A stretch of 64,000 bases of DNA from Amphiplicatus metriothermophilus (lineage in GTDB: Bacteria > Pseudomonadota > Alphaproteobacteria > Caulobacterales > Parvularculaceae). The notes beneath the pieces are model-generated. The model searched no databases and was not told the origin of the DNA. It was given only the letters and a program-made list of their open reading frames with translations. Location of the stretch: the NCBI RefSeq assembly GCF_900199215.1, contig NZ_FZQA01000001.1, positions 620,001-684,000 on the forward strand, given 5' to 3'. The position numbers and the translations under genes were made by a program. This document shows, in pieces, positions 47,833-49,868 of the stretch; positions within the stretch are counted from its first letter, which is position 1, and each line of letters opens with the position of its first letter.

Positions 47833-48019
47833 GCGCGATCCTCGCAGGCGGGGCGGCAAGATAGGCCGGATCGGGCGAAGCGCAATGGGCGGATGGGGCG
47901 CGCGACCGGCGGTAACCCTACCGTCCTCCGTAAAACCGCGCGGGGCGCGATAACCTGCCCTTTCCACGTTCAAGCCGAGACTCTCCGGCGTTGAGAGAAG
48001 AAAAAGAGAGGGCCTCGCG

Positions 48020-48328
48020 ATGAAAGTTCAAGCGACGCTCGCCCTCGTCGGCGCGGCAGTGGCGTTATTCGCCGGCAGCCTCGCCGCCCATCCGGGAGGT
48101 CTTGACCGCAACGGCTGTCATGCCGGCTCGCAGCCCTATCACTGTCATCGCGGCCCGCAGCCGACGCCGACGCGGTCCGCCGCGCCGTCGCCCCGCGGCG
48201 CGGATATGGATTGCGGCGACTTTCCGTCCTGGGAAGCGGCGCAGAGCTTCTTCCGCGCAAGCGGGCCGGGCGACCCGCACCGCCTTGACGCCGACAATGA
48301 CGGCGTCGCCTGCGAGTCACTGCGATAG
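48020..48328 (+). CDS. Secreted excalibur-domain protein
   Basis: Small exported protein of 102 residues. Seen: a signal peptide (about 1-23, ending SLAAH), an HPGGLDRNGCHAGSQPYHCHRG segment rich in His and Cys, a Pro/Ser linker, then an excalibur domain (DCGDFPSWEAAQSFFR... LDADNDGVACESL) with a DxDxDGxxCE calcium-binding-like loop and two cysteines. Known: excalibur domains occur in extracellular proteins of many bacteria; the His-rich segment resembles that of YHYH-type proteins. Function unknown. It is the last normal-composition gene before the AT-richer island. Confidence 0.82.
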   Translation: MKVQATLALVGAAVALFAGSLAAHPGGLDRNGCHAGSQPYHCHRGPQPTPTRSAAPSPRGADMDCGDFPSWEAAQSFFRASGPGDPHRLDADNDGVACESLR

Positions 48329-49868
48329 AAGGGCGATGGGCGTGTGCGGGCAGCGCACGTTACTTCGACGAACTGCGTCTGACAGCGTTGGTCAGGTAAT
48401 ACCGCAATCTGCCCATCAGGCGATCGACATGGCTGTCCGGGCTCATCGCACTTTGCTTGATAACTGCTAGTAGCTTACTACATTAACGCAGGGATAGACA
48501 TGCAGCGCTAGAGACCTAATCATGTCAAAGTTGGGCGATCCCAGAACGCTTAAAAGAAGTGATTCGCTCCAACTGGTTGAGCAGACGAACGTGAGGCTTC
48601 AAGTTGTTAACGGATATTTTCGCAAAGCGATACGCGAACCGTCCGATTTGGAATAATTATACGCGCACGGAAAAGGAACTCCTTGTGCAGGCTTTCAGTA
48701 TTATTAGTGAAAATATCGCGCCTTATTATGATGCAGATGGAAAAGTGAACCCGAACGGAAAGGCCTTTTGGGAGGATATTCATAACCGACTGTCTGTTGA
48801 GTTGGGCCTGAAAAGTCTCTCTCAAATGGCCTATTCCTATCAAACGGCCTTCGCAGGAAAGCAGACTACTGTTTCGGGCGCGTGGCCGATCATAACGGTT
48901 TGCGAGAATTGGATGCACGCTGATCCAGTAGGAGTTCAAGATGTCGATGCTTTCATTAAGGAACGCTTGAGCTTGGTGGAGATTGCTTTCAGAAAGAAGG
49001 AGGCGGCTGTTGCGAAAGCAAACGCCGAACTGCCGCAGCAGATTTTGAAAGCAAAGCTGCGGCCAGCCGGCGGCTTGCGAATCCCAAGCGATCCAGCGCC
49101 CGGCTTGAAAGCATGGAATAAGAATCTTAACGAGGCTTTCCAAGCCAGTGTTGATGAACTGAACACCCGATTCAGGCAGGCAGGATGCGGGCTGCACTAT
49201 CACAACGGGTTCATTCAAATCTCCGAGGATCCGCTGTTCCTCAAGGAAGCTGAACAGCCGTTTTGGCAGTTGGTTTCAGATCCGCTCTGGAAGAACGTCG
49301 ATATTGACATGAAAGAAGCCATTGACCGGCGCGACAATGGCGACCGCGATCCGGCTTGGTATGCGGTCCGCGCGCTCGAAAGCGCCATAAAGATCATATC
49401 AGACAAAAAGGAATGGACGCGCGGCGGAGAGCGAGGAGCCCACAATTACATTGATAATCTTGCCAAGCGAGATGCCCAGTATATCGAGAGTTGGGAAGCC
49501 GAGGCACTGAAGGCGATTTTCACCAAGCTGCGGAATCCGCTTGGTCACGGACCTGGAAGCGCAGAAATGCCGTCTTTTACACCCCAGCAAACTGACCTTG
49601 CCATCGAGCTTTGCATCTCATGGATCAAGAGCCTGATCAAACGGTTCTGAACGAGTTCTTGGCTGGATAATTTTTTCTCTAAAGGTTCGCAAAGACTTTA
49701 ATAAAGCTGGTTGTCCAGTTCTTGCCCAGGTCGGCCTCTAGCAGCATAAGAGATAAAATCATCGGGGTCACGCCACTCCGGTCTGCCGGCGAACCCCGCG
49801 CCCGCCGCGCGCGGGCGTTGACGGGCCGGCGGGCGAGCCGCTAACGACGCCCGATCCCGGAGGAGCTC
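48329..49868. other. AT-richer acquired segment holding one gene
   Basis: From just after the excalibur gene to about 49770 the base composition falls visibly (about 45-50% G+C in sampled 60-nt blocks, against well above 60% on both sides). The single gene is at 48604-49650. The left flank (48329-48603) and the right flank (49651-49868) contain no gene, integrase, tRNA end or direct repeat that I could find; the left flank has a small TAGTA-GCT-TACTA palindrome near 48470. No terminator with T-tract was clear after the gene. Confidence 0.65.
48604..49650 (+). CDS. AbiJ-like HEPN-domain protein (putative abortive-infection defence)
   Basis: Protein of 348 residues starting at TTG (GTGAGG about 7 nt upstream). 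Seen: an N-terminal region (1-100) MLTDIFAKRYANRPIWNNYT with LLVQAFSIISENIAPYYD and KAFWEDIHNRLSVELGL, which I recall from AbiJ-type N-terminal domains; a middle segment with FQASVDELNTRFRQAGCGLHYHNG; and a C-terminal helical domain with KLRNPLGHGPGS, giving Arg310 and His315, an Rx4H motif of HEPN ribonucleases. Codon use and G+C differ sharply from neighbours. Known HEPN/Abi proteins cut host RNA during phage infection. The defence role is inference; alternative: an orphan HEPN protein of other function. No partner antitoxin or sensor gene is next to it. Confidence 0.7.
   Translation: MLTDIFAKRYANRPIWNNYTRTEKELLVQAFSIISENIAPYYDADGKVNPNGKAFWEDIHNRLSVELGLKSLSQMAYSYQTAFAGKQTTVSGAWPIITVCENWMHADPVGVQDVDAFIKERLSLVEIAFRKKEAAVAKANAELPQQILKAKLRPAGGLRIPSDPAPGLKAWNKNLNEAFQASVDELNTRFRQAGCGLHYHNGFIQISEDPLFLKEAEQPFWQLVSDPLWKNVDIDMKEAIDRRDNGDRDPAWYAVRALESAIKIISDKKEWTRGGERGAHNYIDNLAKRDAQYIESWEAEALKAIFTKLRNPLGHGPGSAEMPSFTPQQTDLAIELCISWIKSLIKRF

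Follow-up and report, generated by a model that had tools for sequence, protein, structure and literature searches.

A probable self-contained abortive-infection gene of AbiJ-NTD4/HEPN type in Amphiplicatus metriothermophilus

Introduction

Within the 64,000-nucleotide stretch of Amphiplicatus metriothermophilus DNA analysed here (contig NZ_FZQA01000001.1, positions 620,001 to 684,000, forward strand; hereafter the window), one gene of unusual composition raises the question of what it encodes, how it came to its present site and whether it acts alone. An original prediction, made from the letters and reading frames, described an orphan AbiJ-type HEPN protein that might provide abortive infection without a partner. 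The AbiJ-NTD4 domain was defined in 2013 with CBY_0614 as its prototype, in a paper whose relevant passages propose that such N-terminal domains sense viral parts and restrain the toxin, with HEPN as a suicide RNase (Anantharaman et al., PMC3710099).

Results

An intact gene under protein-level constraint

48604..49650, plus strand: abiJ-like gene, 348 aa, TTG start, stop included

The predicted 348-codon reading frame is unbroken, and its TTG start call is supported by the homologue at locus L033, which begins with MLTDIF from an ATG and aligns with the window protein from residue 1. Upstream lies a 275-bp stretch without a recognised gene. A 44-codon ATG reading frame at 48522-48655 overlaps the gene start out of frame; it is probably a chance ORF, and nothing of significant similarity was seen upstream of the fetched homologues. 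A 31-residue minus-strand peptide on the 3' side of the gene matched nothing.

Could the gene be a decaying immigrant, functionless in its present genome? Copies elsewhere do decay, since several homologues appear split or frame-broken: the one on a Bradyrhizobium sp. 195 plasmid (L042, 8001-9036) is split into three annotated ORFs, those at L104 and L110 are broken, and those at L121 and L126 read across frames. In the window, by contrast, the frame is intact and the protein carries every residue that is invariant in A5, a set made up of the window protein and 38 full-length homologues chosen from 80 loci (copies that were broken or truncated, and a few more full-length ones, do not belong to it). 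Relative to the gene at L117, differences fall on 95, 62 and 216 of 348 first, second and third codon positions, and therefore point to constraint at the protein level, which may have acted mostly before the gene arrived in its present genome; no estimate of Ks was obtainable for this pair. With these observations, we consider loss of function here very improbable.

An AbiJ-type N-terminal domain joined to a HEPN domain

48604..49224, plus strand: N-terminal domain, AbiJ_NTD4-like (residues 1-207; PF18863); predicted alone, pLDDT 94.3, pTM 0.88
49279..49647, plus strand: C-terminal HEPN domain (residues 226-348), whose model can be superposed on 17 HEPN-type structures
49531..49548, plus strand: Rx4H motif RNPLGH (residues 310-315; Arg310, His315)

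The sole Pfam match of the window protein is AbiJ_NTD4 (PF18863), at 92.1 bits (cut-off 34; E=6.5e-26), which agrees with the AbiJ-like N terminus originally proposed. The alignment takes in the whole profile (positions 1-152) but spreads it over 219 residues (residues 4-222), and all 39 rows of A5 match the same profile at E<=1. The only NCBIfam match is NF046078 (STM4504/CBY_0614), at 39.8 bits against a cut-off of 150 and across residues 176-290; judged by its sequence score, the window protein appears as a relative of that family and not a member. Used as a query, it found nothing in PADLOC-DB 2.0.0 at E<=10. A housekeeping identity was rejected: neither Pfam, PADLOC nor NCBIfam gave a match to such a profile, and in none of the three was the best match a housekeeping family lacking HEPN. 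For the N-terminal domain, Foldseek returned no fold relative at E<=0.001 and VIA-align reached at best Z 6.1, with scattered unrelated proteins; because neither was convincing, we state only that a fold relative was not found.

The C-terminal half was identified through structure. In an AF2 model built from 39 sequences (pLDDT 89.3, pTM 0.77), the top 17 VIA-align rows are all HEPN-type (Z 12.4-7.0, 110-121 residues aligned, rmsd 2.4-4.0), and all of these superpositions lie inside residues 223-348. The rows comprise archaeal, Thermus and Thermotoga proteins, sacsin HEPN, HepT and Csm6; seven of the 17 titles say HEPN, and the remaining ten (1ufb, 2q00, four HepT-MNT entries and four Csm6) we take to be HEPN as well. 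The best non-HEPN row for the whole model is a receptor at Z 6.1. VIA-align itself warns that middling Z values come easily to helical bundles; we assign the HEPN fold because the HEPN entries form one top block and because the motif occupies the position that the fold requires, where helix 296-314 ends and ahead of the last helix.

Foldseek, run with the whole model against solved structures, returned nothing at E<=0.001, with 1ufb third at probability 1.00. When PDB chains were searched by sequence with set A2, the five matches at E<=10 included four alphaRep proteins and no HEPN protein. In profile searches the expectation held for AbiJ_NTD4 but not for the HEPN (PF05168) and Abi_C (PF14355) models, which the window protein did not match at E<=10; a wider 15-member set gave three weak Abi_C matches (best 0.0048) and three weak HEPN matches (best 0.00027), and the 39 rows of A5 a single weak match to HEPN_Cthe2314 (E=0.038). 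At the level of predicted structure and conservation, residues 226-348 are confirmed as a HEPN domain.

The conservation centres on the motif. Arg310, Asn311, His315 and Gly316 are invariant in all 39 rows of A5, among homologues at 37-66% identity, and the Arg/His pair is also invariant in 15/15 rows of the wider set; this agrees with the Rx4-6H motif conserved in the HEPN superfamily and, together with the HEPN fold, upholds the proposal that a C-terminal Rx4H motif marks the protein as HEPN. Rx4H is readable in 72 of the 80 loci. It is present at L110, L116 and L123 in a frame other than the one picked by our script, while L106 is cut off ahead of the motif. At L105, at a contig end, Phe replaces the motif Arg, as Trp does in the frame-broken copy at L121. 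The spacing is Rx5H at L125, an Rx5H-type motif is broken across two frames at L126, and seven far relatives in A2 likewise have one more residue between Arg and His. What is new is a subfamily that carries Rx4H and not the Rx5H of its far relatives, that falls below the NCBIfam cut-off, and whose representative in the window is unmatched in PADLOC-DB.

A foreign island at a site that is empty in five relatives

47833..49868, no strand: likely tsaE start to reductase start; tsaE start inferred from alignments
48020..48328, plus strand: excalibur-domain ORF (PF05901, E=2.8e-7), host-like G+C, within the tsaE-reductase gap
48400..49770, no strand: A+T-richer island from a 100-bp G+C table, edges approximate, slightly wider than the ORF

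The gene is as foreign in composition as first noted. Its G+C is 50.8%, against 69.5% in the window outside 46-52 kb. At third codon positions the gene has 56% G+C, compared with 88% in polA and 91% in the reductase gene. When 1047-bp stretches were taken every 50 bp, all those starting outside 46.5-50.7 kb had at least 63.4% G+C. The same bias accompanies the gene elsewhere: in 54 of 58 testable copies at homologue loci its G+C lies below that of the flanks, by 9.5 points on average, versus 13 of 57 for a control of one random like-sized ORF per locus.

The flanking genes are those originally described, an excalibur-domain ORF on one side and, on the other, what we take by inspection to be an FAD-dependent reductase with a ferredoxin ORF after it. 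The neighbours look like core or housekeeping genes, and none of those next to the abiJ-like gene in the window was recognised as a known defence gene. The excalibur ORF has matches in 5 of 37 genomes of the family, its own included, and no sign of a functional link between it and the abiJ-like gene was seen. From tsaE to the reductase gene the window spans about 2.0 kb, which holds both of these genes. In five relatives (G004, G006, G007, G008 and G013) tsaE is the direct neighbour of the reductase gene, and the aligned ends of the two lie 71-158 nt apart; in two others (G011 and G022), whose regions are not syntenic, tsaE was not found in the piece around the reductase gene. The abiJ-like gene is absent from all seven relatives whose reductase regions were fetched and compared, and the insertion site is empty in five of these seven regions (the eighth region that was fetched holds the Caulobacter-type copy of G050).

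The wide vertical conservation and host-like composition of a resident gene were not found. One of the 37 genomes of its own family holds the gene, as do 2 of 61 relatives overall, its own genome included in both counts. Across the class, 10 of 385 genomes match at E<=0.001, in six cases only distantly (E 1.5e-9 to 6e-4), and the Pfam family AbiJ_NTD4 occurs in 17 of 299 genomes of the phylum, with one copy in the gene's own genome. The homologous loci are spread over alpha-, beta- and gammaproteobacteria, Nitrospira, Nitrospinota and desulfobacteria, and a few other phylum names are represented by one locus each. In a tree of 39 rows, Chromatiales joined with Nitrospira (99/97), Burkholderiales with Pseudomonas (99/93), and the window protein with Maritimibacter (98/91) and a Parvularcula bin (100/98). 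Along this tree the phylum label changes five times versus a shuffled mean of 4.9, a clustering no better than that of shuffles. Pseudomonadota make up 33 of the 39 rows, however, 11 of the 36 inner branches are left open, and some contigs may be misplaced in their bins; label changes alone, the tree tool warns, do not prove transfer.

We infer horizontal transfer because the gene is sparsely present, its site is empty in five of seven regions, the tree joins different phyla with strong support, and G+C falls below the flanks far more often than in control ORFs; purely vertical inheritance is rejected by this sparse presence, empty site, foreign G+C and cross-phylum join. Bacteria seem to swap genes of this AbiJ/HEPN type widely. 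The same observations bear on whether the protein might instead be a regulatory or RNA-processing HEPN protein without a role in phage conflict. Many HEPN proteins do have other roles, according to the parts of PMC3710099 drawn on here, and the neighbours in the window have a housekeeping look. Patchy presence, foreign G+C, an empty site and a cross-phylum join speak against such a role, as does an N-terminal domain that the same source knows from AbiJ-type proteins, and we regard it as distinctly unlikely.

A search for the vehicle of transfer found little. A search of viral contigs with this one protein, sensitive to close relatives only, yielded none; a phage collection gave one distant match, in a Zymomonas record titled plasmid, and PHROG one family of unassigned function (E=2.5e-8). 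On these results a phage home was rejected. Flanking DNA common to the homologue loci, or a visible carrier element, was likewise sought and rejected, as only short repeats and chance-level matches were found.

No recurrent partner across 80 loci

The protein had been predicted to lack a partner, and this is true of its own locus and of the homologues. Among 1342 neighbouring ORFs at 80 loci (called by our own script, with errors to be expected), only two families recur within three ORFs of the gene in at least three loci. The most recurrent is found at four loci (L071, L076, L095 and L098), and the second, whose members have the look of chemoreceptors, at three. The members of the four-locus family are uncharacterised, lie on the same strand just upstream, and have 218-241 aa in three loci and 129 aa, as called, in L071. 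Among 57 full-length loci with both neighbours, a same-strand gene lies within 60 nt upstream in 9 and downstream in 13. A conserved operon partner, or a two-gene toxin-antitoxin system, was rejected, as nothing recurs beyond 4 of the 80 loci.

A looser arrangement has the protein as a toxin that is paired with a small RNA, an unlinked gene or a short ORF as its antitoxin and has been selected because it maintains itself, with no part in phage defence. Antitoxins do restrain HEPN toxins such as HepT, HepT-MNT complexes are among the fold matches, and just upstream lie the 275 bp lacking a recognised gene and the short out-of-frame ORF. However, recurrent neighbours are almost wanting in the 80 loci, and neither DNA nor tblastx comparison of the upstream region with the fetched homologue loci showed significant similarity. 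Promoter-like sites number 2 versus a shuffle mean of 1.0, about equally frequent. No Rfam match came near its gathering score: there were two, both far below, and a known structured RNA nearby was rejected. The large conserved N-terminal domain could itself serve as a built-in inhibitor. We consider this reading unlikely.

Whether homologues occur in defence islands had been put forward as a check. Some do stand beside defence genes: a Mesorhizobium plasmid copy adjoins SAVED, Mov34, ThiF, nucleotidyltransferase, SIR2 and UvrD genes, and the second ORF upstream of a Caulobacter RHG1 copy is a CBASS cyclase (E=3.4e-186). A type I restriction gene lies near L087, and near L056 an AriA/PtuA-like ATPase whose match may be generic. 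Divergent homologues were seen near CBASS genes (L109, L113/L043) or HipA-type genes (L110, L044), and this divergent clade might be tied to such systems. However, near neighbours compared with far ones revealed no clear enrichment. Of the 80 loci, 38 have a full-length copy with sufficient flanking sequence; at 37 of these, picked randomly, 90 PADLOC models were matched by 148 near neighbours and 120 by 148 far neighbours; these totals are not protein counts, because one protein often matches many models. Among 25 listed of the 90 near families, PD-Lambda-1 was matched by 2 of the 148 near neighbours; the models for far neighbours include, among 25 listed of 120, type I specificity, AbiD and PDC-S06. 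When 20 near neighbours, picked mostly for size, were scanned singly, 16 had no PADLOC match. Pfam families of the near neighbours are mostly metabolic among the matches listed, with phage integrase in 2 of 148.

Discussion

Taken together, these data make it likely that the gene is a horizontally acquired, self-contained abortive-infection gene of AbiJ-NTD4/HEPN type, and it very probably encodes an RNA-cutting self-sacrifice protein of the AbiJ/HEPN anti-virus type. The original reading is supported in substance by the PF18863 match, the HEPN fold, the invariant Arg/His pair and the lack of a partner. In such a system, the N-terminal domain would hold the C-terminal HEPN domain inactive and would sense something made during phage infection. 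Once activated, HEPN domains may pair and so unite two Arg310/His315 sites, the paired domains would cut RNA, and the cell would presumably be arrested before phage release.

The architecture and role of proteins that combine AbiJ-NTD4 with an AbiJ HEPN domain are already known as a proposal of 2013, and the present gene is a further case of a barely tested kind. With the prototype CBY_0614 it shares the N-terminal domain family, a C-terminal HEPN domain with an Arg/His pair, and a single polypeptide; it differs in its score against that family, in having Rx4H and not Rx5H, and in the spread of the 152-position N-domain profile over 219 residues. A precedent is Tha, which we take as an analogue in its working only: this 301-aa HEPN protein of a Staphylococcus aureus prophage has a C-terminal HEPN domain with the motif RNSIMH and an N-terminal part without a discernible domain, and is an RNase that is triggered in infection and needs the motif histidine (PMC11087260, in the parts consulted). 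Unlike the gene in the window, Tha is encoded by a prophage in Staphylococcus and activated by a tail protein. The HEPN-MNT toxin HepT shares the HEPN fold (Z 8.4-10.4), and in two of its entry titles Arg and His are the mutated residues (R102A, H107A); it has an MNT antitoxin, whereas none was seen beside the window gene. A profile comparison with HepT-type ORFs of relatives was not significant (probability 0.2); it is a weak test, because the regular expression that picked these ORFs chose wrongly at L141 and missed L146 altogether.

We found no laboratory test of the Rx4H subfamily in the open-licence literature. A system named AbiJ in Streptococcus thermophilus is reported with "no activity" in the relevant passage of PMC12322248, and may be another AbiJ type. 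The portions of PMC13092281 available to us report four validated HEPN-domain systems among 31, describe a single CBS-HEPN protein (DS-11), and do not name AbiJ; neither HEPN nor AbiJ occurs in PMC12724215. Excerpts of PMC9600348 count AbiJ_NTD4 on plasmids as phage immunity by annotation, and STM4504 is named once in the excerpted text of an effector-prediction paper (PMC3240867).

A more far-reaching proposal, which we offer tentatively as possible though doubtful, is that these genes form a distinct and widespread single-gene defence subfamily outside PADLOC-DB 2.0.0. Its HEPN RNase would be governed in cis by an N-terminal domain for which no fold relative was found. It would move alone into ordinary chromosomal sites without a visible mobile element, and lie about 10 points below the surrounding G+C in almost all hosts, a difference that might let silencers of the host quiet a dangerous gene. 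Defence catalogues may miss single genes that travel outside defence islands. The locus described here also makes the 2013 prediction, that the N-terminal domain senses and the HEPN domain kills, open to test on a single gene. Its product is small, with two candidate catalytic residues and an N-terminal domain predicted to fold alone, and dozens of homologues are at hand.
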